A program made the position numbers and the translations under genes. The notes beneath the pieces are model-generated. The model worked only from the letters and a program-made list of their open reading frames with translations. It was not told where the DNA came from and did no database searches. Of a stretch of 64,000 nucleotides of DNA, positions 9,192-57,019 are shown in pieces (the stretch's first letter is position 1; each line of letters begins with the position of its first letter). The stretch is from Ignavibacteriota bacterium (GTDB lineage Bacteria; Bacteroidota; Ignavibacteria; Ignavibacteriales; Melioribacteraceae): positions 1-64,000 of the forward strand of contig PAAX01000026.1 of the NCBI GenBank assembly GCA_002698995.1, written 5' to 3'.

Positions 9192-9400
9192 ATTATTTTG
9201 TGAGCTCAAAGTTTTTCAAAAAATGTTTTACACCCGTGTGTAATTTTTTCTATTAGGGAGTGAATTCCATATTTAGATTACTATTCTGGAATTCACTTCA
9301 TACATAATTATCACAATAGCAAAAATAAAAGTATCTCAAATGATGTTAAATCATCTTAGTCTTAAATATTACTTCTCAGCAAACTGATGTATTAATTTAA

Positions 9401-10179: not shown

Positions 10180-10355
10180 GTTTTAACGAATGATTAATTA
10201 CTTTTTGTAATAAGAAAATGGTTTATTGTCTATATAACATTCTAAAGATTTTCTTCATTTATAGATTCCTAACTAATAAATTATAAATTTTTGTTTAGAC
10301 GAATATTTCACTTATTGAAATAATTTATTTGGTATTATCTAACACAAAAATTCTA

Positions 10356-10811: not shown

Positions 10812-10869
10812 AAAATCTATTTATTCCTTTAATTTATTTATTATGCTTTAGACTTATATTACTTTTATT

Positions 10870-11556: not shown

Positions 11557-11598
11557 TTTAATCCCTTTCATAAAGATTATTATTATTGTATTATTTAA

Positions 11599-12240: not shown

Positions 12241-12284
12241 AGTCTATCCCCTTTATTATATTTATTTATAGTTTAATGTAGAAT

Positions 12285-13028: not shown

Positions 13029-13112
13029 GTGACCTTCCAAAATTATTATAAAATTTATTAATACTGCTTTATACATTATTTATAGCTGCTCTGCATTTAT
13101 ATTAGGTATTAT

Positions 13113-14930: not shown

Positions 14931-14944
14931 TTTTCTTTCCGAAT

Positions 14945-15637
14945 TTATTTTGTAAGCATTAATTTTTTGGTAAGTGATTTTCCGTTCCAAATAAGTTGAT
15001 AGAAATACATTCCGCTGGATAAACCTTCAGCGTTTAATTCAATTTCATAGAAACCGGCATCTAGATTTTTATTAATGAGTATTGCTACTTCCCTACCAAG
15101 AATGTCAAATAATTTTAGTACCACATTAGATGACCCACCTAAACTTTCTTGCGGAATCGCAAATTTAATTTTGGTGGTAGGGTTAAATGGATTTGGATAA
15201 TTTTGATATAAATTAAATACATTCGGAAGCATTTCAGAATTTGAAACAAGGGATAAAGAAATTTCTTTTGAATATGATACTTTACCATCTTGATCAATTT
15301 GTTTAAGGCGATAACAAATTATTTCAAGTCCACTTTCAAATTCATCTATGAAAAAGTATTCTTTATGTGAATTTGAAGTTCCACTGCCTTCAACAAATCC
15401 AATACTTATCCAAGTTGAATCTTTGTTATCAATACTCAATTTTTGGACTTCAAAACCATGATTATTAATTTCTGTTACAGTTTCCCATTTAATTATAACT
15501 GCACCATCTTTTACAAAAGCAGTTAATAGGGATAGTTCAACTGGAAGTGGCCCTTGATTGGAGTAACCAATTCCTACTTTTGCAATAGAGCTAATGAATA
15601 AAATAATAATTATTAAAAATGTAAGTTGAATCCGCAT
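14945..15637 (-). CDS. Short secreted protein with T9SS sorting domain
   Basis: A 230-residue protein: signal peptide about 1-20, then an Fn3-like module with the phrase usual for proteins of this phylum (LPVELSLLTAFVKDGAVIIKW ... NNHGFEVQK) at about 30-135. A T9SS type A domain follows at about 148-230 (YQNYPNPFNPTTKIKFAIP ... SLTKKLMLTK). The segment after the NPFNPTT motif reads ESLGGSSN, so this copy lacks the palindrome-encoded insertion seen in three other sorting domains. It stands 14 bp before the FISUMP gene, which has no sorting domain. It may be exported together with it or be a remnant of a larger protein whose main domain has been lost. Confidence 0.85.
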   Translation of the reverse strand: MRIQLTFLIIIILFISSIAKVGIGYSNQGPLPVELSLLTAFVKDGAVIIKWETVTEINNHGFEVQKLSIDNKDSTWISIGFVEGSGTSNSHKEYFFIDEFESGLEIICYRLKQIDQDGKVSYSKEISLSLVSNSEMLPNVFNLYQNYPNPFNPTTKIKFAIPQESLGGSSNVVLKLFDILGREVAILINKNLDAGFYEIELNAEGLSSGMYFYQLIWNGKSLTKKLMLTK

Positions 15638-41394: not shown

Positions 41395-44300
41395 TTAAGC
41401 CAAAACTCTATTTAGGCTGTCTAAAATTTTATCTCTTAAAACCGGCTTAGATATAAAATCATTAAATCCAGCCGCAATAAAATTATCCTTATCGCCGGGA
41501 AGTACGTATGCTGTAACCGCAACTATAGGCACATCTTGATATCCTGGAATCTGACGGATAAATCTTAATGTGTCTAAACCGTTATATTCCCCTTTTAGAT
41601 TTATATCAAGAATTATGAAATCAAATTTCTTGGATTTTATTAAAGGGAGTGCATCTTCCAGTCCGGTTGCATAACTGATAGATTTCAAATCTTTCATCTG
41701 AACTTTAAATAATGTCTGCGATTCAAACTGATCTTCTACATAAAGACATTCAAGCTGAGATAAATCCAATGCCTTTTCTTCAACCTGCGGTATTTCAGTT
41801 TTAGCAGGTTCAATTACTTTTTCTACCTTAGGTATTTCAATAGGCTTTTCTTTTTTTACTTCTTCGTATTTCGGAATTGGTATGGTATCAATTTTTTCTT
41901 TAACAAAATTCTCCGATGAAAATTCAAAAGGAACAATTATTTTAAAATCATCATTTGCCGAAGAATCAAAATCCAAACCTAAGTTGAGTACATCAAGTAA
42001 TCTTCTTACTAATCTAATTCCAAATCTGGACACCCCGTATTTACGCTTTAATTCATTTTCATCTTCAGTAAATATTTTCTCCAAGCCGGAAAGCAAATGA
42101 GGAGTAATACCATTTTTTTCATCTCTGATGGAGATGTAAGCATTGTCTGAATCAAACTTTGATGCCGATAAAAAGATTTTATCGTTCTTGGTAATTTTAA
42201 TAGCAATTGTAAGTATAAGATTTAGAAAACTTAATAATCTTTGTCTATCTGTATTAAATTCAAGAGAAGAAGAAATTTTACCGTAAGTAAGTTCTGTTTT
42301 TTCATCTTTACTTACTTTTTTAACAGAATCTTCGATATCATGAATTAGATCAACAAAACGAATATCGGACTTACTCAGTTTGAAATTATCGGCAATTAAC
42401 GAAGCATATTCTGCCGCAGAATCCATAAGAAGCATAAGGTTTTTATGATTCTCTTGAATGATCTGCGAAGCTTCAAGCTGATCTTTATCCGGATTATCAA
42501 CACTTTCAATTAATTCTTGAGCAAAACCTATAATTACATTTATAGGAGTAAGCAATTCATGAAATAAGTTTGATAAAAATGAAGTATCATAACTTTGAAT
42601 TTTATTTTCTGATACAAGTTTAAGCTCTTTTTTAGCTTCCTTAGGTTCCTGCTTTAAATTAATTGTTAGGTTAAATGATTCAATTTCACCTTCATAATTA
42701 ACAATTGGAAACGCATTTATTTCAGCAGGAATTTCTTCGTTGGTATATGTTTTTACTTTACTTTTTATTCTTTTCCCCTCTTTTTCATTTGAGTGAAAAA
42801 TTGAAGAATTGATAGAAGCACGCTCGCCGTCAGTAACCAAACTTAAAATTGATTTACCGATAATATCATCATATCTGTATCCAAGATTATTAACTACAGA
42901 TTTATTTACATAAGTGATAAATCCGTCTTTATCAGTTAATACAATAGGATCGGAAGTACTTTCAAAAGTAGCCTTGAATAATTGAATTTCCTTTTCTCTT
43001 TCAAGTTGTGGAGTTACATCTTTTATAATATTGAAATGAGCTTTTTTACCTTTAAAATCAATAGTTGATTTACTCATTTCTACAAGAACAGATTTACCAT
43101 TTTTAGTTTTATGCCTCCAAGGACCGCTGAATTCGCCATTGGTAGTACTTTTAAATTTTGCATTCTCAATAAGAGTTTGAATATCTTCGGGAGCATATAA
43201 ATCAGTTAAATCCATTTGAAGAAATTCATCTCTTGTATAGCCATACATTTTTAATGCAATTGCATTAACTTCCAAAAAACGCAGGTTGTCTATATCATAA
43301 ATAAATATTGCTTCGGGACTTGTATGCATTATCACGTCATACATGTTTTTATTCGCTTCTATTTGTGATTGATTAAATAATCTGCTGTCAAACAGCAGAA
43401 GAATATACTTTTTTTTTTCAGTTCCTACCTTGTAGAACGAAACCTTTTCAGAAATCTCAAAGTAATCCGGAACAATTTCAATAAAATTTCTCTCTTCCAA
43501 TAAATCAGAATTCCAAAACAACTGAATTTTCTTTATAGTTTCTTTTGAAAAGAAATCATTAACCGAAATATCCTTTAAATCTTTTTTTGAATTATAGAAA
43601 TGTTCAGTTACAAGTTCTAATTTATTTTCATTATTTATAAGCATTAGAGGATAAGGAAACTTAAGCAAAATTTCTTGATGGAAAGTTGATACTTCCAAAT
43701 CGGGAATTTTGTATGCTAAAGAAACAATCGCTTCAAGTTGATTATCAAAATTGAGCAGCGGAAATTTAACTAAGCTTAAGTCCTTCTCCTCTAAATATGC
43801 ACCCTCTACAACAAGTAATTTTTTGTTAGTTCTTATATAATTTTCAAAATCTATGGTCTGCTGTTCATCAGTTTTAAATTTTTCACTAAGATATGCTTCA
43901 TTAGCAATAATATACTTTTCTCTTATATCTTTTATGCTAAATGGTAACTTGTAGTTACTTAATTCTTTCTTAAGCTTTGCTTTTGAAATAATTGTGAATG
44001 GATAATTTTCTTCAATAAAATTAAAAATATCCAACAGATTTTTATCTTTAACAAAATCACTTACTTCATCAAAATTAATTTTGATTTGTTTTGGATTAAT
44101 CTTGTTCTCACTTAAAACCTGCCTGAGATAAACTAAATAATTTTGATCTTCCTCAATATTTACAACAGTAATTTGATAGTTCTTATTTTCAAATAAGAAA
44201 TAATCTTCAATATCATAACTTTCTGATTTTTGTCGGGATAAATAATCAATCCCCTTTTGAATTAATGAATAAAAGTTATTCCCTAATACTAAATTACCGT

Positions 44301-44427
44301 TATCACTTTTAAATAATTTCTCTGCTGAATTATTCTTATATAAAATATTCAGTTCGCTATCTACAATAAAAGCCGGATAACTAACTGCGTTATTAAGAAT
44401 GTTATATGTTGATTCTTTAATCTGCAT
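41395..44427 (-). CDS. Soluble PAS hybrid histidine kinase, ATP site degenerate
   Basis: A 1010-residue cytosolic protein with no transmembrane segment. It has an N-terminal PAS at about 1-110, an undefined region, PAS domains at about 360-480 (TSPEAIFIYDIDNLRFLEVN) and 485-605 (DPIVLTDKDGFITYVN), HisKA with H623 (LFHELLTPINV), a HATPase-like domain at about 700-830, a Pro/Glu/Lys-rich linker, and a C-terminal REC with D941 (FIILDINLKG). The HATPase boxes are poor: the N-box NA is IA, the DxGxG box reads DEKNGI, and the GxGLGL box reads GVSRFGIRL, so kinase activity is doubtful. Its ATG overlaps the FN3 lipoprotein stop (TAATG), tying it to the polysaccharide operon as last gene. It probably regulates polymer production. 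Confidence 0.85.
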   Translation of the reverse strand: MQIKESTYNILNNAVSYPAFIVDSELNILYKNNSAEKLFKSDNGNLVLGNNFYSLIQKGIDYLSRQKSESYDIEDYFLFENKNYQITVVNIEEDQNYLVYLRQVLSENKINPKQIKINFDEVSDFVKDKNLLDIFNFIEENYPFTIISKAKLKKELSNYKLPFSIKDIREKYIIANEAYLSEKFKTDEQQTIDFENYIRTNKKLLVVEGAYLEEKDLSLVKFPLLNFDNQLEAIVSLAYKIPDLEVSTFHQEILLKFPYPLMLINNENKLELVTEHFYNSKKDLKDISVNDFFSKETIKKIQLFWNSDLLEERNFIEIVPDYFEISEKVSFYKVGTEKKKYILLLFDSRLFNQSQIEANKNMYDVIMHTSPEAIFIYDIDNLRFLEVNAIALKMYGYTRDEFLQMDLTDLYAPEDIQTLIENAKFKSTTNGEFSGPWRHKTKNGKSVLVEMSKSTIDFKGKKAHFNIIKDVTPQLEREKEIQLFKATFESTSDPIVLTDKDGFITYVNKSVVNNLGYRYDDIIGKSILSLVTDGERASINSSIFHSNEKEGKRIKSKVKTYTNEEIPAEINAFPIVNYEGEIESFNLTINLKQEPKEAKKELKLVSENKIQSYDTSFLSNLFHELLTPINVIIGFAQELIESVDNPDKDQLEASQIIQENHKNLMLLMDSAAEYASLIADNFKLSKSDIRFVDLIHDIEDSVKKVSKDEKTELTYGKISSSLEFNTDRQRLLSFLNLILTIAIKITKNDKIFLSASKFDSDNAYISIRDEKNGITPHLLSGLEKIFTEDENELKRKYGVSRFGIRLVRRLLDVLNLGLDFDSSANDDFKIIVPFEFSSENFVKEKIDTIPIPKYEEVKKEKPIEIPKVEKVIEPAKTEIPQVEEKALDLSQLECLYVEDQFESQTLFKVQMKDLKSISYATGLEDALPLIKSKKFDFIILDINLKGEYNGLDTLRFIRQIPGYQDVPIVAVTAYVLPGDKDNFIAAGFNDFISKPVLRDKILDSLNRVLA

Positions 44428-46247
44428 TATAAATTAGGAATAGTTACTTGTACTTCGTTCGAATAATCCGAATAACCATTTGAGAATCTAGCTCTAACCC
44501 TATAAATATAAGTTAAAGTACGAGCTACGTTATTATCATTAAAACTTATCGATCCCCCTTGTCCGCTCTGTGCACCAATAATTTGATAAACAGAGAATGA
44601 AGCATCAAAACTTCTTCTTCTTTCCAGTTCATATACAATTTCGTTGTCATAAGGATCATTAAATTGTAAACTTACCTGCGTTGCTGTTAGGTTTGTAACA
44701 GTTAAAGTAATATCGGAAATAAATGAACCTTGAGTATTAACTTCATTGGAATAACTTGAGAAGAAGCTTCCTCTAAATGCTCTTACTTTGAAGAAATATT
44801 GGCTGTTGGGATTAGGCAGAGTAATTCTATCCGCAGAAACATTTACACCGTATGTTTTAAATAATTGATAAGTTCCAAGATTAGTTTCTTTAGCCCAAAG
44901 CTGAAATCCTTCTTCATCATCAGAATTATCATTCCAGAAAATGCTGTACTCGTTTGTTGATCCGCTTACGGGAAGAATGGTTAAGTTTGATGGAGCAATT
45001 GGAGCTACTTCTACAACTCTAGCGCTGTCAATATTAGAATATTGAGTGAAAAAACCTTCTGTTGAACTATGTCTAGCACGATAATAGTAAATATTACCCG
45101 CAGTTACATTTACATCAATTAATGAATCAATATCAGTTGCTGTTGAACCAATTGGCTCAAAATTATTTAAACTGTTTACGCTTCTTTCAACTAAGGTACC
45201 GTTTTCAAGTGCAGTTTTATCCTGCCATCTAACCAAAACATTTTTCTTATTTACTCTAAATGATGCTACCAAATTGCTAGGTGCAGGAACGTCAACATAA
45301 GAAGTTGTTAATGTAACAATATTCGACCAAACGCTTTGAGAGCTTTCGGTAAATGAAGCTATTCTATAACTGTAGGTTGTTCCTTGAAGAAGATTTCCAT
45401 CGGTGTATTCTCTTTCCAAAGGTCCGGTTATAGCGATCTGTGAAAAATCTCCTGTAGTTGGATTTGTTCTTTGAATTTTGAATCCAAGTACATTTGTACT
45501 TTGATCATTCACTTCCCAAGTTAATCTTATTGTTGAAGAACCGAGTATTTCTCCCGATAAAACAGGACCGCTGATAGTGCTTACTTCATTACTGAATGGT
45601 GAAGCACCATATTGATTGACAGCTCTAACCTTATAATAATAATCTAATACCGGTGATAAATTTTCGTCATTGGTTGAAATGGAATTTTCCGGTAAAGTTT
45701 TATAAAGAGAATAATTTGCATCAGCACCTACTTTTCTCCAGACTTCAAAAGATGATTCATTACTCGAACTATCATCCCAAAAAAGATTTATGGTTCTGTC
45801 GTTTATTTTTGTAAGCACTAAATTTGCCGGAGCTTTTGGGGGTTCTTTTGATTCGGAAACGTGAATATTTTCTTTTACTTCACTTGTTGTTATTACATTT
45901 TCTTGACTGTAAACATTTACATAATAACTGATTTTTGTGTTTATTAGAGAAGAGTCGATAATCAAAAAAAGTTTCGGATTTGTCCCGTCACTATTTTGAT
46001 TATACTGTTTTTGAAATTCATCATTAAGCCAAACTTCATATTTACTTAAACCTGAGCTGTTTCTACCCGCACTTGCTTCATATTGAATTTCATTTTCACC
46101 AACTTGAACCGTATCACCGTTATCCGGGAAAATTAATTTTATTGTAGGGGCAGTAGCTTGGGGACTATCAGTTATCGAATCAACACAACTAATAAAAAAA
46201 GATAAAAATATGATTAAGAAAAATATTTTAACGAACTTTTTTGCCAT
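44427..46247 (-). CDS. Lipoprotein with fibronectin type III repeats
   Basis: A 606-residue lipoprotein with lipobox FISC (C21). An N-terminal Ig-like domain (about 32-125) is followed by about five Fn3 domains, each beginning with AP.NL and carrying YYYKVRA, YSYRIAS, YYYRARH, YFFKVRA or YIYRVRA near its end. It is an extracytoplasmic scaffold, probably on the outer membrane. It sits 17 bp downstream of the NodB-like gene and overlaps the hybrid kinase gene, so it belongs to the polysaccharide operon. It may bind the polymer or link the export complex, as PelC-type lipoproteins do in another system, but it is unrelated to PelC in sequence. Confidence 0.85.
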   Translation of the reverse strand: MAKKFVKIFFLIIFLSFFISCVDSITDSPQATAPTIKLIFPDNGDTVQVGENEIQYEASAGRNSSGLSKYEVWLNDEFQKQYNQNSDGTNPKLFLIIDSSLINTKISYYVNVYSQENVITTSEVKENIHVSESKEPPKAPANLVLTKINDRTINLFWDDSSSNESSFEVWRKVGADANYSLYKTLPENSISTNDENLSPVLDYYYKVRAVNQYGASPFSNEVSTISGPVLSGEILGSSTIRLTWEVNDQSTNVLGFKIQRTNPTTGDFSQIAITGPLEREYTDGNLLQGTTYSYRIASFTESSQSVWSNIVTLTTSYVDVPAPSNLVASFRVNKKNVLVRWQDKTALENGTLVERSVNSLNNFEPIGSTATDIDSLIDVNVTAGNIYYYRARHSSTEGFFTQYSNIDSARVVEVAPIAPSNLTILPVSGSTNEYSIFWNDNSDDEEGFQLWAKETNLGTYQLFKTYGVNVSADRITLPNPNSQYFFKVRAFRGSFFSSYSNEVNTQGSFISDITLTVTNLTATQVSLQFNDPYDNEIVYELERRRSFDASFSVYQIIGAQSGQGGSISFNDNNVARTLTYIYRVRARFSNGYSDYSNEVQVTIPNL

Positions 46248-46264
46248 AATTATCCGTAGTTAAA

Positions 46265-48166
46265 TCAGCTTTCAATGTTTTCAAAATCTATTAAATATGA
46301 TCTTGTTTCACCTACATCTAAATCCTCTACATATAAATAAAGAGTGCTTGTATTTGAATCAAATGTATATTCAGGAATCTTTGTATTAATTATATCAGAA
46401 GATATTTCTACATTTTTAATCTGCTTATTAAGGTTAAGTTCAACGGTAAAATCAACATTTTCTCTTTTAGTTGGATTTGAAACTTCTACGGCAATTCTTC
46501 TCTTGCTTCTAGTTTCATATCTCATTTCAATGCCGCCTCTTCTTAACCACCAAACTGAAAGTTCATCAAAACTTGTAATCCAGTAATTATTATCCCGCAA
46601 GTATTTAACAATCGAGTTCATAACATTTACATATTCTGCACGAAGTTGATAATCGGTATGAACTTTAAAGACCAGTAATCCACCTTCAAATTTTATTCTA
46701 TCTATATCTTCTTCATATGTATATCTTTGAAATTCGGTATCGGTTAAACCATAATCTCTAACAATTTTGTAATCATCACGAGCAGTTTTGGTAAAGATCA
46801 TAATTGGTTTTCCATCACGAATTTCAATTTTGGGTACGGAACGATCTGTTAAAGAATCTGTTACAAGGAATCTCATATTTTCTTTACTCATTCCCTGCAG
46901 AGTATATTCGTTATAAAAACCGAACAAAGGCATTAGGGATTCAATAGGCTTATCCGCTAATTTGCTTAATGTATCTTTGGCAAAAGCTAAATCCGCAAAT
47001 TGAATTTCTTTATCATAGAATGCATTAATTGTATCATCTAATGAGAATAAAAATCCAACATCTACAACCGCACCAATATCCTGTGATTTACTGAGTGTTT
47101 TTATAATTCCTGGATATTCGGAAGCTTTAAGAGGATCAACAAAATATGTAGCTTGAATACTATTGTTCTTCAGAATCGGCAATAAATTAAGAGCATTATT
47201 AGGCTGTTCGGTTATCATAGGAACAATAACTGCTGCAGCTTCATACGGAGCCGGCCAATCTTTAACGTAGGCAGTTGGATTGTAAGTTAACCAGTTAAGA
47301 GAATTTCTAAAAAGTCTGTCAAAATAAATATAATCTTCCTGTTCACCAACAACAGAATTGAGTTCAAATCCGTACCATACAAATCTTCCTTTGCCATAAG
47401 TACCGTAGGCAATTCCAGCACTTTTTTGAATAGCTTCTTGAACTAAACCTTTTTCACGTCTGAAATCATACCAAAAACTAACTTGTGTGGTTCTTGGTTC
47501 AACAATTTCCACATAAATTGGTCTATCCCAAGTTGCAATATCTAAAGAATATCCGGTAGGAATTCCGGCAGTTAAAGGCAAGTTCCCTCTCAAAGTATGA
47601 ATCTTAGTTATTTCATCCGGTCTAATTTCCTTGTTAAACTTTAGACCAAAAACTTCAGTAACAAAGCTCCAGCCTCTCCATTTGGCTTCATCGGAAAATG
47701 TTGCGGTACCGCTGGTTGAAAAAACACTTCCCCCTCTTTCAATATATTTTTTCAGTTGAATAATTTCTTTATCACTTAAAGATTTTGAACCGGGGAGAAC
47801 AATAACTTTATAATCATAGTGCTGCCCCAATTCAATTGTCTGATCATTTATAATATCATAAGGAAATTTATTTGCTTTTAAGAAATTCTCCCAAGTATCA
47901 ATATTATCATTTAGCCAGGTGCTCCCTTCATCAAGCATATTTTGAGTATACTGCGAATAAAGTACAGCAACTTTATTCCTTTTATCCGAGGTAGAAATCT
48001 GCAGATTTTCGGGAGTTGGTAAAATTTCGGGGACTTTATAATTACCATATACATTTTTGATAACCAGCATAAAAACTAAAATGCCGGCAACAAGCAGAAC
48101 CATTCCGCTTAAAAATATAATAAGGTAATTAACCCTTAAGCCATATTTTCCTCTTTTTACCGCCAT
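46265..48166 (-). CDS. Membrane-anchored GATase-like plus NodB-like protein
   Basis: A 633-residue protein with an N-terminal transmembrane helix at about 15-37. A class-I glutamine-amidotransferase-like/beta-galactosidase A4-like domain spans about 65-290 (KVAVLYSQYTQN ... YKVIVLPGSKSLSDKEI ... YGKGRFVWYGFEL). A polysaccharide-deacetylase (NodB) fold follows at about 305-545 (AAAVIVPMITEQ ... ILKNNSIQATYFVD ... NNYWITSFDELSVWW), then a beta domain to the end. The order resembles PelA- and PgaB-type modification proteins. The NodB metal motifs TFDDG and HxxxH appear as VPMITEQ and VVDVGFLF, so deacetylation is doubtful. It overlaps the small single-span gene by 10 bp and is co-translated in the polysaccharide operon. 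Confidence 0.8.
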   Translation of the reverse strand: MAVKRGKYGLRVNYLIIFLSGMVLLVAGILVFMLVIKNVYGNYKVPEILPTPENLQISTSDKRNKVAVLYSQYTQNMLDEGSTWLNDNIDTWENFLKANKFPYDIINDQTIELGQHYDYKVIVLPGSKSLSDKEIIQLKKYIERGGSVFSTSGTATFSDEAKWRGWSFVTEVFGLKFNKEIRPDEITKIHTLRGNLPLTAGIPTGYSLDIATWDRPIYVEIVEPRTTQVSFWYDFRREKGLVQEAIQKSAGIAYGTYGKGRFVWYGFELNSVVGEQEDYIYFDRLFRNSLNWLTYNPTAYVKDWPAPYEAAAVIVPMITEQPNNALNLLPILKNNSIQATYFVDPLKASEYPGIIKTLSKSQDIGAVVDVGFLFSLDDTINAFYDKEIQFADLAFAKDTLSKLADKPIESLMPLFGFYNEYTLQGMSKENMRFLVTDSLTDRSVPKIEIRDGKPIMIFTKTARDDYKIVRDYGLTDTEFQRYTYEEDIDRIKFEGGLLVFKVHTDYQLRAEYVNVMNSIVKYLRDNNYWITSFDELSVWWLRRGGIEMRYETRSKRRIAVEVSNPTKRENVDFTVELNLNKQIKNVEISSDIINTKIPEYTFDSNTSTLYLYVEDLDVGETRSYLIDFENIES

Positions 48167-48642
48167 CTAAGGGGTTCTTCTTTCTTTTTGTTTTCAACTT
48201 TTTTCTGATCTACATAATTCTCAGTTGTATATCTAGAGAATTTTCTACCGGAAGGAGTAAATCTTTCCGATTCTCCGGTTTCTCTGCCAGAAGGTCTTTG
48301 ATATTTAGTCTCCGAATAAGAACCGCTGGAAGTTGAAGGAGAAACAAAAGTAGGACGCATTTCAGGACCTTCTTCTCTAACGTCTGTATATCTTCTTGTT
48401 TCGTAAATCGATTCTCTTGTTGGAGCTCTTTCTTCAATAATAGTTCTTCTGGTTTCACCTTGTGCACCGGCTAATTGCGCTGGCGCTACTAATTCACCAG
48501 GAATAGCAGAAGGCTGAGCTGCCTGGGCAGTTCTTCCCTTTCTTTCTCTAATTTTATAAAGTATGTATGCACCAACAGCAAGAATAAATGTAGAAATTGT
48601 TGCTACAAGAATTATAAGTGAAAGTATTGGAATTAATTCCAT
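48157..48642 (-). CDS. Small single-span membrane protein with disordered tail
   Basis: A 161-residue protein with one transmembrane helix at about 3-30 (IPILSLIILVATISTFILAVG) followed by a basic, Pro/Ser/Arg/Glu-rich cytoplasmic-type tail without predicted structure. It is placed directly after the GT2 synthase gene (18 bp) and before the NodB-like gene (10-bp overlap). PgaD, a short membrane protein that supports PgaC, holds the same position in pga operons, so an accessory role to the synthase is plausible. There is no sequence resemblance to PgaD that I can see. Arg-rich tails can contact nucleotides or lipid head groups. Confidence 0.75.
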   Translation of the reverse strand: MELIPILSLIILVATISTFILAVGAYILYKIRERKGRTAQAAQPSAIPGELVAPAQLAGAQGETRRTIIEERAPTRESIYETRRYTDVREEGPEMRPTFVSPSTSSGSYSETKYQRPSGRETGESERFTPSGRKFSRYTTENYVDQKKVENKKKEEPLRWR

Positions 48643-48660
48643 TTTATTTCTCCAATAAAT

Positions 48661-50115
48661 TTATTTTTTAGCTAATGCAGGAGTAGGAGTAGTTGCCGCA
48701 CCTGCTGCCGGTTTTTTCTGCTGACCAAAACCAACTCTTTCCAGTTTTCCCCAATCCATTTTAATACCAAGAAATTCTTCAATAGTTGCCATTGCTTTGG
48801 TAACATCAATAAATACAATAAAGACTAATCTGTAAATTAAAGCATAAGGTACCAATCTGAATTCCTCTTTTTCAGCAGCAATACAATATATTGCCGCCAT
48901 TAAATCGAGTACCATAATACCAAGCCACCAGAAAAATATAAGGCTTGACATTCCGTACAGTAACGCAACAATAATAAAGAAAATATTAGCGAAAATGTTC
49001 ATAGCAGGCCAAATGAGAGCCTCATAAAACATCGTCCATAAAATTAGTGTGTTATTAAAATTAAGTGTTGGATTAAATATATGTTTCTTATGTTTTCTGA
49101 TAGCTTGAAGAATTCCGCGTGTCCAGCGGTATCTTTGTTTCAATAATTGATGAAGTTTAACCGGAGCTTCTGTATAAGCAATACAATTAGGTTCATATTG
49201 TATTTTCCAGCCTTTAGCTAGAATTTTAAGAGTCATATCGGCATCTTCTGCAAAAGTATCACTTGAATAGAAACCGGCATCTCTTAATGCTTTCTTTCTG
49301 AATATTCCAATAGGACCTGGAATAATATTTACCATTCTGATATAACCCTGCGCACTTCTGGCAAGATTCAAGCCTTCAATGTATTCAAGTGCTTGAAGAT
49401 CAGTTAAGAATTTTTTTCTATTTTCAATTTTTACATTCCCGGCAACAGCACCAACTTCAGGATCAATAAAATGTCTTAATCCCATTTTCAATGTATTTTC
49501 TGAAAGCTGCGAATCACCATCCATACACAAAACAAAATCAGCTTCAGAATACTGAATGCCGGCGTTTAATGCTTTTGATTTTCCACCGTTCGGTTTATTT
49601 ATAAGAGAAACTTTTACAAGACTTGTTCTTCCCTGTCTGTAACCGACTAAAGTTTCAGCAACTTCGGCAGTGTTATCTTTTGAACCATCATTAACAATTA
49701 GAATTTCATAATTAGGGTAATCTAAATCGAGCAGAGAAGAAATTGAATCAGCTAAAACTTTTCCTTCGTTATAAACCGGAACAATAATAGAGACAAAAGG
49801 ATAATAACCATCCTTCTCTTCAACAGTATATTTTGTAATGTACAAGTAAGCTAAAACAAGAATTGAAAAATATCTGAACATCAATACAAATAAGAAAATT
49901 ACAAGAGAAACTATAGAAGAATATACAAATAAACCGCTCCAGGATAATACTGTTAACGGAAGTGTAAAAAGGATTATTAAAATTAAGACAAGTGATAAAA
50001 CCCCGGTAATAATAATAGTACGAAGTTTTTCACTTCCTTCATTTCTGTGAGGAGGTTTAATTTCTCGGTTATCTAATACTACCTGTAATTTTTCTATTTT
50101 TTGTTTTATTGACAT
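48661..50115 (-). CDS. Processive GT2 polysaccharide synthase (PgaC/cellulose-synthase-like)
   Basis: A 484-residue inner-membrane glycosyltransferase with two N-terminal transmembrane helices (about 32-55, 60-93). The GT-A catalytic domain at about 105-335 has D143 (VNDGS), D199 and D201 (MDGDS), catalytic-base motif AED (D291) and QRYRW (327-331), the full processive-synthase signature. A C-terminal membrane bundle (about 350-445) and an Ala/Pro tail follow. Size matches PgaC/IcaA rather than BcsA, and there is no PilZ domain. It should polymerise a beta-linked sugar from a UDP-sugar and extrude it across the inner membrane. It could be a poly-GlcNAc or a cellulose-like synthase; the neighbouring GH9 hints at the latter. 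Confidence 0.92.
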   Translation of the reverse strand: MSIKQKIEKLQVVLDNREIKPPHRNEGSEKLRTIIITGVLSLVLILIILFTLPLTVLSWSGLFVYSSIVSLVIFLFVLMFRYFSILVLAYLYITKYTVEEKDGYYPFVSIIVPVYNEGKVLADSISSLLDLDYPNYEILIVNDGSKDNTAEVAETLVGYRQGRTSLVKVSLINKPNGGKSKALNAGIQYSEADFVLCMDGDSQLSENTLKMGLRHFIDPEVGAVAGNVKIENRKKFLTDLQALEYIEGLNLARSAQGYIRMVNIIPGPIGIFRKKALRDAGFYSSDTFAEDADMTLKILAKGWKIQYEPNCIAYTEAPVKLHQLLKQRYRWTRGILQAIRKHKKHIFNPTLNFNNTLILWTMFYEALIWPAMNIFANIFFIIVALLYGMSSLIFFWWLGIMVLDLMAAIYCIAAEKEEFRLVPYALIYRLVFIVFIDVTKAMATIEEFLGIKMDWGKLERVGFGQQKKPAAGAATTPTPALAKK

Positions 50116-50359
50116 AATTAGATATTATTTTAAATTTTATAAGACAATAACAATGCCAAAATACAAAAACTCCAATTTTTATCTATTTTCGAATTTTCAT
50201 CTTTCGCAATAGTCTTATTTTGATACATTATTCCTTGTTTGACGCAATTTCCCAAATAATTTGTTTTGAATATAATACTTTAATTAAGCTATTGCAATAA
50301 AATAAGTTAAACAATATTTCTAAAGTAAAATCACAATAAAACTTATCTAAGTTAATAAA

Positions 50360-53248
50360 TTACCAAATTGACCAGAAAGCAATCGCATAAATTGAAGCGG
50401 AATTATAACCTGTGTTTTCTCTGAAAGAACTATTTAAGAATCCATTAAGATTCATTCTGAAATTTCTTGACGGAGTCCATGTTAATCCCGATGATAATTG
50501 ACGTAAAATGTAATCGCTCTGAGGTACGTAACCTAGTTTTCCTTCAACAAACCAATTCCATTCTTCTTCTTTAACTATTTCCCATCTTGCAATTAAACTA
50601 TGAGCCGTATAATTCTGCGGAGTGTAATAAAGTGGTATAGAATATTTGAAGTCTCCGAATTCAAATTCATATCCGAATTCTAAATCTTCAAAAAATCTTC
50701 TCAATACTTTGATGCTGAAAAAATTACCTTTATTTGCTGCGTAAGTTGTAATTGGATTTGCATAAATATCAGTGTAAGAATCAACAGTAATATATTGATA
50801 ATATGAAATAAATCTTAAAACTTCGTTTGGATTATAAAATCCGTCTAATCTGAATGAATTAGCTCTTAATCTAATTCCAACTAAACTGGGTGAATATAAA
50901 ATTGTTGCCGCATCGCTGCTTAAATAATTAGCCGAAATTCCCCAATGATCTTTCTTTTCGTATTGTGCACCAATTTCATAATATTCTTGATTAATAATGA
51001 AAGGGCTGTATTGTCGTCCATAACTGCCGCGTAAAATAAAATTATCGGTTGGACGAATAAACAAATTTCCTTTAAAGAGATTGAAATCAATTCCAATTGA
51101 TGAGTTGCGTAAATGATTTCTTAAAAAGGTTGCACCAACGGAAATATAGGGAAGAAGTCCGGTTTCTATTGAAGCACCATAATATAAATACTCAAAATCA
51201 AGATCGTCAACAAAGTAGTAAGCAGTTGGAGAAAGAACCATATAAGAGAGCATATTATCTGAAATCCATCTAAAAGCATGATCAAAAGCAGTAGGTTCTT
51301 TAGGAAGCCAATCTATTCTTTGTTCAATATCCCATTCTTCCGGAGCTGTATCTTCAATCATTTCATACATTTGAAGAGCTTTATCATATTCTTTATTTCT
51401 TGAATAAACATCTCCTAAAAATAAAATGACTTCTTGATCAGTAGAATCTTCGGCGTATAAAGTTTCAAATTCGTTTTGTGCGCCGGTATTATCTTCCATG
51501 TAATATAAAATTTTGGCTCTATTTTTTGCAGATTCGTAAGAATAATCTTCATCTAAAATTTGATCATAAAGATCCAGAGCACTATAATAATCTTCAGCAC
51601 AAATATAAATGCTTGCTAACTCAGTCTTAAATGCTGCATCAATAGGTAAATCCGTACTATCCATATAATTCAAGAAATAAGGAATAGCTTCATCGCATCT
51701 TCCTTCATTTACAAGTTCTCTTGCATCTTCAAGTTTTAAAAGAATTTCATCTCTTTTTACTCTTGCTTTTTCAGCCTGAATTAAATTTTGAAGAGTAATT
51801 AAATCAGGATTTTGAGCATCAACTTCTGCTGCTCTCTGAGCATAAACTTCTGCAGATCCGGACATATTTCTTTGAACATTTAGAGAACCAAGCGTAATTA
51901 ATGCATATAAATTATCTGGGTCTTGATCCAAAACATCTAAAAGATTTTGCTCAGCTGCCTCTAAATCCTTGTTTAACCAAACTCCAAGTTGTCCTGCTAA
52001 TAATTTATACTCAGGATTATTTGTGTTATCCTCTTCCACAACTTGATTCACTTGATCATAAGCATCTTGAAAAAGTCTATCATATGATAAAACCTTAGCA
52101 TAAAAGAATCTTGTTTCAACATCATTTGGAACTAATGTAAGATATTCACTTAAAATTTCTTCAGCTTCAGGGTAATTTTCCATATTGGCATAATTCTGCG
52201 CAATTGCCATAACAGCTTCTCTGTTTGTTGGATCATTTTTAAGATCGGCTGTTAATCCTTCAATTTTAGTTTGGAAATCACCTTGTCTATATTCTTCGAT
52301 TCTTTGATTAAGATTGATAAATCTTTCATCATTTTCGTAGTTTGTTCTTAAGTATTGAATCTGCTGATAAGCTTCTTCAAATCTTTCTGCATTTAATAAT
52401 TCTTCAACAAGCTGAAATCTGCTTTCATCATCATTAGGATCATTCTTAATAACTCTATAAAATCTATCAATTGGATATTCACGTTCAAAAGATCTTGGCG
52501 ACTGTAAAGTCAAATATCCTTCACGTCTTGCCAAATCTAGTCCATCTTTCGCTTCAATAAAAAATGGTTTTATTTCCAAAGCATTAGTAAAAGCTCTTTC
52601 GGCATTCTGAAAATTACCAAGCCACATAGTAAAATATCCGTATCGGCTCCATAATCGCCAGTCATCCGGATAACGGTCAACATATTTTTTGAGGATCTTT
52701 TCCCCTTTTACTATTGAACCGGTATGAGATAGAATTTCAGTATAACGAATAATTTCATCGGGAGAAGCATCATCATCTCTGGCTAAATACTGATCATACC
52801 AAAGTTCTGCATCTTTCCATTCCTCAAGCCATCTATAAGATTTACCGATCTCCAAATAGTTAAAAGGATTATTAGGATCGATAGCTATTTCTCTTTTAAA
52901 GCCGTCAATTCTTTTGTAAAGTATCGGACGCCAAATACTCCAGACTCTATCAAGATTCTTTTTATGAACGGGATTGGAAGGATCTAATCTGACAGCTCTT
53001 CTAAAATCAAGAACTGCAAATTGGTATTGCTCTTTCTTTTCAAAACATAAACCTCTAAGATTATATCCATCTGCTTGGCGGGCATTTTCGGAAATATATT
53101 TATTCAGAAGATCGATAGCTTCCTCATATCTACCATTCTGCATGTGTGCCATTGCCTGCCTTTTCATTACTTCATTTAATTTTTGCGCTTGCAAAATTGG
53201 AGTAACTAAAAGCAAAGCAAGAATCAATATGAGCTGCACCCTCTTCAT
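50360..53248 (-). CDS. TPR plus outer-membrane beta-barrel export protein
   Basis: A 962-residue protein with a signal peptide at about 1-21 (VTPILQAQ). Consecutive TPR units span about 25-640 (e.g. NGRYEEAIDLLNKYI, YDKALQMYEMIEDTAPEEWD), and a C-terminal outer-membrane beta-barrel spans about 665-962 with alternating aromatic strands ending AIAFWSIW. This is the architecture of PgaA, BcsC and PelB, which carry the polymer through the periplasm and outer membrane. It lies 26 bp after the KaiC-like gene. A 244-bp gap separates it from the synthase gene, where a second promoter could lie; no other gene is visible in that gap. Confidence 0.88.
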   Translation of the reverse strand: MKRVQLILILALLLVTPILQAQKLNEVMKRQAMAHMQNGRYEEAIDLLNKYISENARQADGYNLRGLCFEKKEQYQFAVLDFRRAVRLDPSNPVHKKNLDRVWSIWRPILYKRIDGFKREIAIDPNNPFNYLEIGKSYRWLEEWKDAELWYDQYLARDDDASPDEIIRYTEILSHTGSIVKGEKILKKYVDRYPDDWRLWSRYGYFTMWLGNFQNAERAFTNALEIKPFFIEAKDGLDLARREGYLTLQSPRSFEREYPIDRFYRVIKNDPNDDESRFQLVEELLNAERFEEAYQQIQYLRTNYENDERFINLNQRIEEYRQGDFQTKIEGLTADLKNDPTNREAVMAIAQNYANMENYPEAEEILSEYLTLVPNDVETRFFYAKVLSYDRLFQDAYDQVNQVVEEDNTNNPEYKLLAGQLGVWLNKDLEAAEQNLLDVLDQDPDNLYALITLGSLNVQRNMSGSAEVYAQRAAEVDAQNPDLITLQNLIQAEKARVKRDEILLKLEDARELVNEGRCDEAIPYFLNYMDSTDLPIDAAFKTELASIYICAEDYYSALDLYDQILDEDYSYESAKNRAKILYYMEDNTGAQNEFETLYAEDSTDQEVILFLGDVYSRNKEYDKALQMYEMIEDTAPEEWDIEQRIDWLPKEPTAFDHAFRWISDNMLSYMVLSPTAYYFVDDLDFEYLYYGASIETGLLPYISVGATFLRNHLRNSSIGIDFNLFKGNLFIRPTDNFILRGSYGRQYSPFIINQEYYEIGAQYEKKDHWGISANYLSSDAATILYSPSLVGIRLRANSFRLDGFYNPNEVLRFISYYQYITVDSYTDIYANPITTYAANKGNFFSIKVLRRFFEDLEFGYEFEFGDFKYSIPLYYTPQNYTAHSLIARWEIVKEEEWNWFVEGKLGYVPQSDYILRQLSSGLTWTPSRNFRMNLNGFLNSSFRENTGYNSASIYAIAFWSIW

Positions 53249-53274
53249 GAATCTTCGCTTTTATTTGTTAGAAG

Positions 53275-54567
53275 TTAATTCATTGGTAGATAGAGATTAT
53301 CTTTCTTTAATAGAATATTGAACATATCTTCCGAATTAACATAATCTTCATTTACCGGTATGGCAAAGTATGAGATGTGACCTAATACTTTTGTTAAATA
53401 AACCGGATCATGACTTGGTAAGAAATGCTGCATTTTTTCTATTAACTGTGCAACGCTGTTATTACTACTTCTAATCAGCATCACAACAATAAGGTTCTCT
53501 ATCACACAAACTTTATCTTTCTTTTCAATTGAATATAGAATAGAGTTTTTCAATTGATCTAGAGTTAATAATTCTTTTGTAGCTGCTGCTTCATCCAGTT
53601 TAAAACTTACTAAATGAAACTGCTGCCCTGTACTTTTATATAAAGCAATCTGGTTATTGAGAATTAATGAAAAATCATTTTTTGAATAAACATTAGAAAT
53701 TTTTAATCCGTCATCTTTCGGCGGAGAAATATTAGTAATTTTTGTCGGTTTACTTTCAGGTTCAGTATTTTGAATAGCCTGTTGATATTCTTGATTCTTC
53801 AGATCTTCAATTTTATTAGATGTTTCAATAGTATTTTTTAGGTTACTATTCTTCTGCGGAATTTCAATTGAAACCCCTTTATAAGGTTCAATAATATATT
53901 CCGAGGAAAATTGTCCTTCTGTATGTCCAACATTAGGACTAATAATAACTGTACCTCCATGGAAAGCTCCATGAATTTTGTCAGCTCTTTTTTTCAAAAA
54001 GACAATTCCGGTAACATACTGCGAAATTCCGTCAATAATTTCTTCAGCTTTTTTTGTTGCCGGTTCACCAACAACAAAAAGACTGGTAATATTGAGTTCT
54101 TCAATCTGTTCTAAAGTTTTTAGGAATGATTCTCTTAATAAATCAACATTCTGAAAACCTATGTATGGAGTTAATTCATCAAAAATTATTCTTGATGGAT
54201 TATATTGATTAACAACAGTAACAATATCATTTAAGTATTCAATTAAATATTGATCGGGATTATACAAATCATAAATATCATTTGGAGGAGCTACTCTAAC
54301 TACAATAATTTTGTTTTGGTTCATGTAGTTTTGTATATCAAAATTAATGGAAGCTGCTTGAATCATTAAATCTTTTGGACGCATGTTTGTGAAATACAAA
54401 CAAACTTCATTTGCTTTTGCAGATTCAATTGCAAATTGTAGTCCCAATAAAGTTCTACCGGATTTACGAGGACCAATTAATAAATAACTTCCGCCTCTAT
54501 AAATACCGCCCCATTCTTTATCAACTAAACTAAAACCAGATTTTATTAAGCTTATTGCTCCTTGCAT
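53275..54567 (-). CDS. KaiC/RecA-like ATPase with possible degenerate GGDEF tail
   Basis: A 430-residue soluble protein. A single RecA/KaiC-type domain spans about 5-235. The Walker A region is GPRKSGRT (32-39), with Arg38 where Lys is invariant in active P-loops, and Walker B is RIIFDEL. Residues 240-285 are a polar linker. Residues about 290-430 have the helix-strand order of a GGDEF domain, with FHLVSFKLD matching the first core strand and DKVCVIENLIVVMLIRSS at the position of the signature; no GGDEF residues remain. It is the first gene of the exopolysaccharide operon. By position it could be the regulatory ATP or cyclic-dinucleotide sensor, as the degenerate GGDEF of PelD is in Pel. The KaiC-like call is firm; the GGDEF-like call is tentative. 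Confidence 0.8.
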   Translation of the reverse strand: MQGAISLIKSGFSLVDKEWGGIYRGGSYLLIGPRKSGRTLLGLQFAIESAKANEVCLYFTNMRPKDLMIQAASINFDIQNYMNQNKIIVVRVAPPNDIYDLYNPDQYLIEYLNDIVTVVNQYNPSRIIFDELTPYIGFQNVDLLRESFLKTLEQIEELNITSLFVVGEPATKKAEEIIDGISQYVTGIVFLKKRADKIHGAFHGGTVIISPNVGHTEGQFSSEYIIEPYKGVSIEIPQKNSNLKNTIETSNKIEDLKNQEYQQAIQNTEPESKPTKITNISPPKDDGLKISNVYSKNDFSLILNNQIALYKSTGQQFHLVSFKLDEAAATKELLTLDQLKNSILYSIEKKDKVCVIENLIVVMLIRSSNNSVAQLIEKMQHFLPSHDPVYLTKVLGHISYFAIPVNEDYVNSEDMFNILLKKDNLYLPMN

Positions 54568-54687
54568 TTCAATCCTCTTAATTCAATTATTAAAATACCA
54601 ATTACTATGCCGAGTGTAAAAAACTACTTAATAACCGTTTTTCAACTATGTTGTTGTTTCAAAAAGAAACAGTATCTCAATTTGATT

Positions 54688-56319
54688 CTATTTTCTATTT
54701 GAATAATATCCCATTACAAAAATTGCTGTTGCATTTGCAGTAATAGTCGGTTCGTTAGCAATATAGTCATTTCTATCATCTCTGTAGTAATATTCTTCAG
54801 TTTGAAATCTGGCATAAGGATCATAAGTTTCATAATCTATCTTATAATCATTAAGCAATGCTTTAGGTGCTGGACCGGCAGCAAATCCACCCGGTAAAAT
54901 AATCTTTTTTAAGTAAGCTATTTGATGATGAAGATTTCTTGAAAACTCTGTTCCAATTCTAGAAATAAAACTAACTCCCCAAGGATTTCTTCCCAAAACA
55001 AAATCCCTTTGCAGCACTGCTAGTGAACTAAATTTATTGCTGCGGGTTACTCTTTCATACAAAATATGATGAAGAGAGATTCCCATTAGAGTATTGTTAG
55101 TTCCCCATGTTGGACTTACTCCGTTATTAAATACATTCTTATTTGCTCTTTCATAAAAGCTTGTTAAATTTTCCTCAATAAAATTTGCATAAGCTAAATC
55201 ATATTTTGCAAGTTTATAATGTGATAGAACATTTATATTTCCCCAGCTCCACCAATTTTCTGCGCCGGCTTCTGAAGCTAGTTCTCTTGCTTCCTTATAA
55301 TATTCACTTTTCTTAGTTGATTCAAAAAGCTCAACTGCACCAAGAGCGAGTTTGCCTTTGTATTCACTATCCAGATAAAAGCCGGTTCCGCTTTTATTTA
55401 CATCAGGAGCAAATTTTCTTTTTGCAAAAGCTTTTTCTGCTGCAGCCAAACATTGATCAGCAAATTCAGGATAATTAAATCTACTCCTCCAAATGCGAGA
55501 ACCTAAAGCTAAGGCAGCTGAATAAATTCCGATCAAATTTTTTCCGGTTCCGATAAAAGCCGGTCTATCAAAGGCAAGCGGATCATTTTCCGGAAGACGC
55601 CACCCAACTTCTTGATCTCTTTGGTCTTGAACCTGAACAACAAACATTTCATTATCTAATTGAGCTCTTAAAAGCCAATCCAAACCAATTTTTGCTTCTT
55701 CAAGAATATCGGGAGTTCCGTTTCTATCATTATCAAAACTAAATTTTTGAGGATCGAATTCATAAGAAAACAAAAGCATATATGTGGTAAAAGAAATAGT
55801 ATTTATGAACTTGGCATAATCCCCGGCATCATGCCAACCACCGGTAACATCCACTTGTTTTTCAATTACTTTATCACCGTTTATAAGTTTATGTGAATCT
55901 GCTTTATGACATATATCATGAAATTTTGGATCAGTGTAGCCGCATCTCTGTACCGGATAAAATTTCATTAATTCATCTACTACTTTATGATATAAATTAT
56001 AGGCTATACTAAAATTATGAGAACGACTTCCCTCAACTTCTAGATAGTAAGTACCGGTTTTTTGAATTTCAGAAAAATCAATTCGATAAATATGATTAAA
56101 GGTTCCGTAAGTTGTATCAATTTTCATTAAACTATTTTTTAAGATAATTTTGCCGTTTCCGTTTTCTCTAAGTTTAAAATCCTTGTTGGAAATATCAATG
56201 TTAGATATTACCACGGCTGATTTGTTATCTTCGGGTAAAAAGCCAAGCTGGTTGACTCTAATAAAAATCTGTGCAGCAGCGAAGTTAGTAAAAATTAAAA
56301 AAGGAATTAATAATCTCAT
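54688..56319 (-). CDS. Exported glycoside hydrolase family 9 (endoglucanase-like)
   Basis: A 543-residue exported enzyme with a signal peptide at about 1-16. An N-terminal CelD_N-type Ig-like domain spans about 17-105 (IRVNQLGFLPEDNKSAVV), and a GH9 (alpha/alpha)6 catalytic domain about 112-540. GGWHDAGDY carries the nucleophile-activating D164 and base D167. The terminal ANEPTITANA carries the acid E523, in the family's NE..I..NA motif. GH9 enzymes cut beta-1,4-glucans, and a subset act on glucosamine oligomers. On the same strand and 120 bp upstream of the KaiC-like gene, it may trim or release the polymer made by the adjacent synthase, as BcsZ (GH8) does for cellulose. Confidence 0.9.
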   Translation of the reverse strand: MRLLIPFLIFTNFAAAQIFIRVNQLGFLPEDNKSAVVISNIDISNKDFKLRENGNGKIILKNSLMKIDTTYGTFNHIYRIDFSEIQKTGTYYLEVEGSRSHNFSIAYNLYHKVVDELMKFYPVQRCGYTDPKFHDICHKADSHKLINGDKVIEKQVDVTGGWHDAGDYAKFINTISFTTYMLLFSYEFDPQKFSFDNDRNGTPDILEEAKIGLDWLLRAQLDNEMFVVQVQDQRDQEVGWRLPENDPLAFDRPAFIGTGKNLIGIYSAALALGSRIWRSRFNYPEFADQCLAAAEKAFAKRKFAPDVNKSGTGFYLDSEYKGKLALGAVELFESTKKSEYYKEARELASEAGAENWWSWGNINVLSHYKLAKYDLAYANFIEENLTSFYERANKNVFNNGVSPTWGTNNTLMGISLHHILYERVTRSNKFSSLAVLQRDFVLGRNPWGVSFISRIGTEFSRNLHHQIAYLKKIILPGGFAAGPAPKALLNDYKIDYETYDPYARFQTEEYYYRDDRNDYIANEPTITANATAIFVMGYYSNRK

Positions 56320-56389: not shown

Positions 56390-57019
56390 TTACTTTTTAT
56401 CCTTTTCGGGATAAGTTGTTCCAAAAACATAATCCCAAGTGGGCTGACTGACACCAAATCCCTTATCAGAATGTTTGTAATGATGAAGCATATGGTGATT
56501 TTTAATTGCAAGCCAGAATTTATTTTTCATATTGAAATGATGTACTGCATAATGTGTTATATCATAAAAAAGGTAACCGGTTAAAAATCCAACAAAAAAG
56601 GGATTGACCAATACACCACCAATTAATGAATGAAACAACAAGAAAAATAGTGATGCCAAAGGAATACTAACCGAAGGAGGCATAACTAATCTTTTTGAAT
56701 CCTTTGGATAATCATGATGAACACCATGAAAAATAAAATGCATCCGTTTTCCGAATTTGCTTTTTGGTTGAAAATGAAAAATAAATCGATGTAATGCATA
56801 TTCCGTAAATGTCCAAACAAAAATTCCTATTACAAAATAAAGAGCAACAGTAGAAATGGGAAGTTCGAAAATAAATACTCCCCTGTAAAAAAAGTAAGAA
56901 ATAATAGGAAGAAAAACCCAAATTGGAACAGTCCAATGGACTTTTGAAAGTGCTTCAAGGAAGTCATTTTCAAACATCCGTACTGTTTCATCTTTATTTG
57001 AAACATACAACTTTGTCAT
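56390..57019 (-). CDS. Sterol desaturase/fatty acid hydroxylase family protein
   Basis: A 209-residue integral membrane di-iron enzyme. The eight-His pattern of the superfamily is visible: ALHRFIFH, FHGVHHDYPKD, ITHYAVHH and NHHMLHHYKHSDKGFGV. Transmembrane segments lie at about 33-50, 58-75, 115-135 and 140-158. The compact size and the HH-dense C terminus resemble fatty acid 2-hydroxylases (FA2H/Scs7-like). It probably hydroxylates a membrane fatty acyl chain. It has its own terminator and is not obviously coupled to the polysaccharide locus or to the M16 genes upstream. Confidence 0.85.
   Translation of the reverse strand: MTKLYVSNKDETVRMFENDFLEALSKVHWTVPIWVFLPIISYFFYRGVFIFELPISTVALYFVIGIFVWTFTEYALHRFIFHFQPKSKFGKRMHFIFHGVHHDYPKDSKRLVMPPSVSIPLASLFFLLFHSLIGGVLVNPFFVGFLTGYLFYDITHYAVHHFNMKNKFWLAIKNHHMLHHYKHSDKGFGVSQPTWDYVFGTTYPEKDKK

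Follow-up and report, generated by a model that had tools for sequence, protein, structure and literature searches.

Introduction

Cellulose, Pel and similar synthase-dependent exopolysaccharides are textbook outputs of cyclic di-GMP (c-di-GMP) signalling. In its general layout the PgaABCD system, which makes poly-GlcNAc, combines a TPR exporter, a GT2 synthase, a small membrane partner and a protein with a CE4 fold. For type II cellulose secretion in E. coli, published accounts describe the cellulose regulator BcsE as a degenerate NTPase domain followed by degenerate REC and GGDEF domains (PMC7439463, PMC11470070). The N-terminal domain has been modelled on KaiC (PMC7439463) and, as a catalytically incompetent NTPase, is recruited by the single-span protein BcsF (PMC11470070), while the GGDEF domain binds c-di-GMP and BcsQ (PMC7439463, PMC11470070). 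Here we analyze a locus of eight genes (positions 41395 to 56319) in a window of 64,000 nucleotides from a Melioribacteraceae member of the Ignavibacteriota (contig PAAX01000026.1 of assembly GCA_002698995.1), which is contig 31 of a genome of 4.23 Mb and 99.99% completeness. From first to last, its genes code for a GH9 glycosidase, a KaiC-like protein, a TPR-barrel exporter, a GT2 synthase, a single-span protein, a membrane protein with GATase- and NodB-like folds (hereafter NodB-like), an FN3 protein and a PAS hybrid histidine kinase. By analogy with BcsE, we consider it rather probable that the locus encodes a machine for synthase-dependent exopolysaccharide, governed by a BcsE-type switch that is its own and does not depend on c-di-GMP, and our verdict is that it constitutes a variant of such systems that, by the tests run, lies outside Pga, Bcs and Pel.

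The KaiC-like protein, a probable control protein

Relatives of the KaiC-like protein (53275 to 54567, minus strand; Pfam KaiC, 7e-24) were sought in 245 genomes of the class, 43 of which are listed as same family or order; the named relatives are mostly Ignavibacteria and Melioribacteraceae genomes and include the isolate Stygiobacter electus. An orthologue was found in 41 of these 43 genomes, the genome of the window included (E-value 1.1e-85 or better), and the remaining matches in the class were partial, weak (1e-9 or worse) and located in frames of about 500-600 amino acids, as an ordinary KaiC would give. A profile of the KaiC-like proteins was then run against 395 genomes and, with 112 bits or more over the N domain taken as a strong match, reached 16 genomes outside the class but within its phylum, here termed distant carriers (loci and genomes are cited below by our L and G numbers).

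An alignment (A3) of the window protein with 63 of the 79 complete KaiC-like proteins (64 rows) was used for an AlphaFold2 model with a mean pLDDT of 87.9, in which residues 1-237 adopt a KaiC fold and a low-confidence linker (239-290) leads to a second domain at about 292-430. The N domain matches a KaiC structure with a Z-score of 26.7 (2.6 Å over 216 residues), and it is the only KaiC domain of the model. The glutamate pair of KaiC is catalytic; both residues are replaced in all 64 rows, mostly by [NSTL]M, and the Walker A segment reads GxxKSGRT, with arginine in place of the lysine in 57 of the 64. The KaiC clock ATPase combines two KaiC domains, a catalytic EE pair and a Walker A of the form GK[ST], a combination that is not seen here. 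A working KaiC-type ATPase was rejected on the loss of the glutamate pair, and the idea, put forward in a preliminary description made from the letters of the window, that a KaiC-like ATPase controls the locus finds no support where a working ATPase is meant.

The second domain had been overlooked in that description, the remaining family assignments of which (GH9, KaiC, TPR, GT2, FN3 and PAS/HisKA/HATPase/REC) are borne out by Pfam. In the model its elements follow the order a-b-a-a-b-b-a-a-b-a, the strand and helix order of GGDEF domains. A C-terminal profile joining the order rows with 11 distant domains (four stretches were left out: L187, for which a wrong frame had been called, L189, in which no KaiC frame was matched, L192, truncated where its contig stops, and L193, which codes for a normal KaiC of two domains) aligned with seven E. 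coli GGDEF domains at 94% in hhalign over 167 columns, with the aspartate of RxxD and the GGDEF pentapeptide in register, and the REC, NodB-like and KaiC-N control comparisons all remained below 1%. Pfam GGDEF_2 is also detected at the same place in four of six distant orthologues, with a best E-value of 4e-4 that lies below the cut-off. As judged from sequence and predicted fold, the KaiC-like protein is a fusion of two degenerate domains, KaiC at the N terminus and GGDEF at the C terminus.

The BcsE-BcsF pair of E. coli likewise unites a degenerate KaiC/RecA-like NTPase and a degenerate GGDEF domain, with the synthase and a single-span gene alongside (PMC7439463, PMC11470070). In the locus analyzed here the single-span gene (48157 to 48642, minus strand) follows the synthase gene. 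Its product has a hydrophobic span at residues 3-21 according to a simple hydropathy script and a charged tail, matches no Pfam family and gives nothing above cut-off in NCBIfam; we propose that it is an adaptor at the membrane, serving either the control protein or the synthase, and that it may play the part of BcsF. The BcsE family itself gave no match in the Pfam or NCBIfam scans of the locus, and it is most likely in outline that the KaiC-GGDEF protein works like BcsE, a likeness of working rather than an identification as BcsE.

Conservation of the locus

A first set of loci comprised the 40 KaiC-like orthologue loci of the order other than that of the window. Strand and gene order are the same for all genes found in the 40 loci, 32 of which contain all eight genes and 38 a core of five (KaiC-like, TPR-barrel, GT2, single-span and NodB-like). 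A TPR-barrel match is present in all 40 (only partial in L078), a GH9 match precedes the KaiC-like gene in 37 and an FN3 match was obtained in 35, with absences due in part to contig ends (L052, L056); in L076 (G135), the stretch contains neither GT2 nor the genes after it, and a different contig carries the NodB-like gene. Because this order recurs in all 40 of these loci, with a few exceptions in the second set below, the gene arrangement is more than chance, and the synteny check proposed in the preliminary description leaves that description standing, as do the GT2 identities given below. The second set, of 80 named loci kept from 140 found and partly overlapping the first, includes many loci cut by the flank or by a contig end, and contains matches to the TPR-barrel in 78, GH9 in 72, GT2 in 63, single-span and NodB-like genes in 60 each, FN3 in 57 and the kinase in 35; the GH9 match is located downstream in L143 and 7.6 kb upstream in L154.

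Within the order, the NodB-like profile matches 37 of 38 KaiC-positive genomes. The KaiC-like and NodB-like genes are both absent from G199 and G176, where the best GT2 is only 24-27% identical, so the module seems to be kept or lost as a whole. Separately, in L078 (G207; 8042-15006) a diverged KaiC-like gene and the kinase are retained between what appear, by eye, to be the same flanking genes, with a GT2-like gene of 21% identity and the NodB-like gene gone, as if the synthase had been exchanged under a retained control layer.

Among the distant carriers, L179, L180, L183, L184 and L188 present all five core genes in unchanged order, and L182 and L185 four of the five, the single-span gene being unmatched; L190 has the KaiC-like, TPR and GT2 genes before its stretch ends, and L181, L186 and L192 end too soon for their core content to be judged. 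The NodB-like profile matches 13 of the 16 genomes and, conversely, wherever it matches a distant genome strongly, as it does in 13, a strong KaiC-like match is present too (13 of 13); G432 and G539 give NodB-like matches that are weak and partial (5e-14 and 2e-14), and strong KaiC-like matches are missing from both. Over its N-terminal part, the single-span protein shares 60-80% identity with its counterparts in three of the distant loci and 41% with those in two others. No GH9 match was obtained across the 15 distant stretches searched, and GH9 is consequently placed outside the wider core. In several distant carriers, and in some members of the order, the NodB-like gene is followed by a second and diverged copy (L185:17690-19549, L182:359-2284, L041:13215).

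Predicted synthase, exporter and polymer

The predicted synthase (48661 to 50115, minus strand; Pfam GT2, 7e-32) is a processive family-2 glycosyltransferase with about five hydrophobic spans, according to the same script, and the motifs DGD, AED and QRYRW, read by eye. Its best NCBIfam model, PgaC/IcaA, is matched at 207.5 bits against a cut-off of 422.3, and the CelA model at 73 bits against 699. The exporter (50360 to 53248, minus strand), recognized by TPR matches in Pfam and a C-terminal region read as an outer-membrane beta-barrel, has an arrangement like that of PgaA, PelB and BcsC and scores 46.9 bits with the PgaA model TIGR03939, the cut-off of which is 366.65. Membership of Pga, Bcs or Pel was rejected on the Pfam and NCBIfam scans, which gave these PgaC, PgaA and CelA scores and no PilZ or BcsB match in the locus. 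The preliminary description had proposed a synthase-dependent exopolysaccharide locus with parts resembling Pga and Pel; this is supported, with parts like those of Bcs as well, and by the tests run the locus lies inside none of the three. It had also reported no PelF or PelG in the locus, in agreement with a Pfam scan confined to nine proteins of the genome, among which no further glycosyltransferase or multi-span family appeared (the fatty-acid hydroxylase described below aside).

For the placement of the synthase, suggested in the same description, pairwise identities and a tree were used. With the GT2s of six KaiC-linked loci from distant carriers, the GT2 of the window shares 52-58% identity. 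Other synthases give lower values, namely 23% for BcsA, 28% for the enzymes from Arthrobacter and Deinococcus, 28-31% for PgaC and NodC, and 34% for the C-terminal 460 residues of a Prevotella glycosyltransferase 1135 amino acids in length. In the tree, branches are long, forks are poorly supported, and one open fork places the reference synthases next to the distant GT2s; since the deep forks are not settled, only the pairwise identities count here and no clade is claimed.

The GH9 glycosidase (54688 to 56319, minus strand; Pfam PF00759, 4e-75) has a CelD_N Ig-like domain (PF02927, 1e-18) and, by eye, a signal peptide, and is a probable polymer-trimming hydrolase. GH9 enzymes mostly cleave beta-1,4-glucans, and the presence of this one suggests that the polymer may be beta-1,4-linked, but GH9 has no match in the distant stretches. 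A cellulose-like locus, in which the synthase would make a beta-1,4-glucan and GH9 would be the counterpart of BcsZ, fits the recurrence of GH9 ahead of the KaiC-like gene in the order, but we regard it as unlikely, given that the GT2 is farther from BcsA than from PgaC and NodC, that neither PilZ nor BcsB is matched in the locus and that GH9 is confined, in the stretches searched, to the nearer relatives. In 17 of the 39 order loci with both genes, a GDSL-like hydrolase gene lies between the TPR-barrel and GT2 genes (e.g. L064:9398-10666); the window has none, and the two proteins scanned gave Pfam E-values of 3e-6 and 6e-4, below cut-off. This gene hints that the polymer may bear acyl groups.

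The NodB-like protein

The NodB-like protein (46265 to 48166, minus strand) was modelled with AlphaFold2 at a pLDDT of 86.7 and aligned (A4) with 46 of 59 NodB-like proteins (47 rows). The model comprises a single membrane helix (14-40), a GATase1-like or CBM87-like domain at about 60-297, with Z-scores of 18.0 against 3RHT and 21.4 against the central domain of a GH42 enzyme, a CE4- or CE18-like domain at about 303-545 (Z-score 26.7 to the CE4 fold of 3RXZ) and a beta sandwich. The GATase/NodB-like call of the preliminary description, which Pfam matches only weakly (1e-3, below cut-off), is thus supported in both domains by the predicted fold. The Foldseek list also includes 4JQS and the PelA deacetylase structure 9CGY, the latter at a root-mean-square deviation of 17 Å. 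Set beside the published description of Aspergillus Agd3 (CE18-CBM87), the protein shares the three folds and their order (GATase1-like carbohydrate-binding module, CE barrel and beta-rich C-terminal domain), and the nearest GATase-like structures given for Agd3 are also 3RHT and 4JQS (PMC7229062). It differs in its N-terminal membrane anchor and in the missing canonical Asp and His motifs, whereas homologues of Agd3 are described as keeping the catalytic motifs CM1 (DD) and CM2 (HxxxH) (PMC7229062).

HxxxH is missing from all 47 rows, and a DD pair near the first motif occurs in two of them, the window protein not being one. A canonical NodB-type deacetylase was rejected on these grounds, and the NodB-like fold gives no support to the amino-sugar polymer that the preliminary description considered possible. 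The invariant residues D437, R442, R463-D464-D465 and H503, the last being a histidine in the MT5/CM4 region, leave room in the alignment for some other activity, and since H503 and R463-D464-D465 are kept in 47 of 47 rows we say that the protein is not a canonical deacetylase, and do not call it inert. With the canonical CE4 motifs missing, it is more likely to be a polymer guide.

These results bear on a second alternative, in which the locus would be of Pga type, producing an amino-sugar polymer and removing its acetyl groups, with accessory genes gathered around it. The TPR repeats of the exporter, the GT2 synthase with PgaC/IcaA as its best model, the small membrane partner and the CE4-fold protein are all shared with PgaABCD, yet PgaC reaches only about half and PgaA about an eighth of the respective cut-off, the deacetylase motifs are lost, the GATase/CBM87-like domain, the KaiC-GGDEF protein and the kinase are additional here, and the accessory genes hold their position in 40 of 40 loci. 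We therefore find a Pga-like system quite improbable.

Nucleotide signals

In 41 genomes of the order the GGDEF family was matched exactly once per genome, by a frame about 620-650 amino acids long, and the motif is degenerate in all 41; in the same alignment, L247 of G383, a distant carrier, reads GGDEF. PilZ has no match in any of the 41 genomes. The GGDEF test was extended to the 14 distant genomes that were fetched (G271 and G495 were left out), and 13 of them gave no match, G383, with its intact GGDEF gene, being the exception. In view of the motif lost in 41 of 41 genomes, the lack of PilZ and the absence of GGDEF from 13 of 14 distant carriers, the system appears to run without c-di-GMP. 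The earlier statement that PilZ is lacking holds for the GT2 as for the order genomes, and that of no recognizable c-di-GMP synthase is true of the whole genome, with the amendment that the locus does hold a GGDEF-derived domain.

In the KaiC-GGDEF protein, the arginine of the I-site RxxD is absent from all 64 order rows. With this loss, the missing PilZ match and the lack of an intact GGDEF source, the locus departs from the BcsE arrangement. PelD and Listeria PssE are likewise degenerate GGDEF receptors encoded in exopolysaccharide operons, and PssE is described as binding c-di-GMP through an RxxD I-site (PMC4125290); from both the present protein differs in the lost arginine of the order and in having a degenerate KaiC domain as partner. 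Distant carriers keep RxxD in eight of 11 proteins, although 13 of the 14 genomes tested have no GGDEF match. The single GGDEF-family protein of the order (L194, G000:C23:48000-51500, and 40 further genomes) was inspected by eye in seven of the genomes and shows a membrane region at the N terminus together with GAF-like repeats, a layout that recalls PelD. The remaining alternative, ordinary c-di-GMP control of the locus through a KaiC-like protein that has kept its c-di-GMP binding, could appeal to the RxxD of the distant domains, to the intact gene of G383 and to BcsE and PssE as described precedents (PMC7439463, PMC4125290), but is very improbable in the face of an arginine absent throughout the order, a sole GGDEF match without its motif and no such match in 13 of the 14 distant carriers tested.

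A c-di-AMP synthase family is present in all 32 carriers examined; as such synthases are common in bacteria, this is weak evidence for a ligand. It is a conjecture, to which we give little credence, that the KaiC-GGDEF protein is a synthase switch of GGDEF descent whose ligand has changed from c-di-GMP to a different one; c-di-AMP is the candidate, its synthase family being present in the carriers while intact GGDEF genes are missing from 41 of 41 order genomes. No exopolysaccharide synthase is known to be under control of this type, though no search aimed at one was made.

Locus layout and remaining genes

All eight open reading frames sit on the minus strand in a compact run, with intergenic gaps of 120, 26, 244, 18, -10, 17 and -1 bases from GH9 to the kinase, and the run is probably an operon. 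The positions, strand and short gaps or overlaps of the preliminary description are confirmed by these measurements; its placing of the KaiC-like gene first is corrected, since the run opens with GH9 and the KaiC-like gene comes second. The FN3/Ig-repeat protein (44427 to 46247, minus strand; Pfam fn3, 3e-18) has a lipobox by eye. In the PAS hybrid histidine kinase (41395 to 44427, minus strand), with Pfam PAS, HisKA, HATPase_c and a C-terminal Response_reg receiver, the hydropathy script detects no hydrophobic span, and the H-box is kept in 36 of 37 orthologues, the 37th being cut by a stretch end. A fatty-acid hydroxylase gene (56390-57019) lies on the same strand 70 bases upstream of GH9, and reading frames resembling it by eye are also upstream in L048 and L078.

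Proposed model

The analysis itself establishes how the genes are ordered, conserved and found together, which folds are predicted, that catalytic residues are lost and that neither intact GGDEF nor PilZ is matched in the order. Under the BcsE-type reading that we favor, polymer production, docking, gating and the link to the kinase are the parts that we infer. The GT2 would synthesize the polymer and move it across the inner membrane, the membrane-anchored CBM87/CE-like protein would guide it in the periplasm, the TPR-barrel would export it and GH9 would trim it. The cytosolic KaiC-GGDEF protein would dock on the synthase, probably via the single-span protein, as BcsF holds BcsE, and would act as a ligand- or partner-gated scaffold, neither ATPase nor cyclase, with the PAS hybrid kinase giving sensory input. 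A search of the open-licence literature returned no title describing this system, which is not proof of absence.

Several observations weigh against this reading. The GGDEF assignment of the C-terminal domain comes from profile comparison and from the order of strands and helices, as the fold-search lists were taken up by KaiC structures, and the hhalign signal needs both sets of rows, because it falls to 24% with the 64 order rows alone and to 55% with the 11 distant rows alone; against the other degenerate GGDEF family of the order, the C-terminal profile reaches 0.06%. BcsE has a degenerate REC domain and the KaiC-GGDEF protein does not, and hhalign against one E. coli BcsE remains below 0.2%, a weak test insofar as it involves a single fast-changing sequence. 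The RxxD found at the I-site position in the eight distant domains (L179-L188) would suit c-di-GMP binding. As regards the locus, in L187, L189 and L191 (G268, G380 and G501) no GT2 or NodB-like match lies beside the KaiC-like gene in the stretches read, and in these three genomes, out of the 16 distant carriers, the NodB-like profile finds nothing anywhere. In the second set, L139, L143 and L146 extend 7 kb past the TPR gene without a GT2, which in L140 sits 6 kb on from the TPR gene.

Implications

The order appears to retain the layout of a c-di-GMP receptor beside a polysaccharide synthase after losing, or never having had, the messenger itself. This suggests that scaffolds combining a dead ATPase and a dead cyclase around polysaccharide synthases arise outside the enterobacteria too, and the question of what degenerate GGDEF domains sense without c-di-GMP becomes testable in cultured strains.

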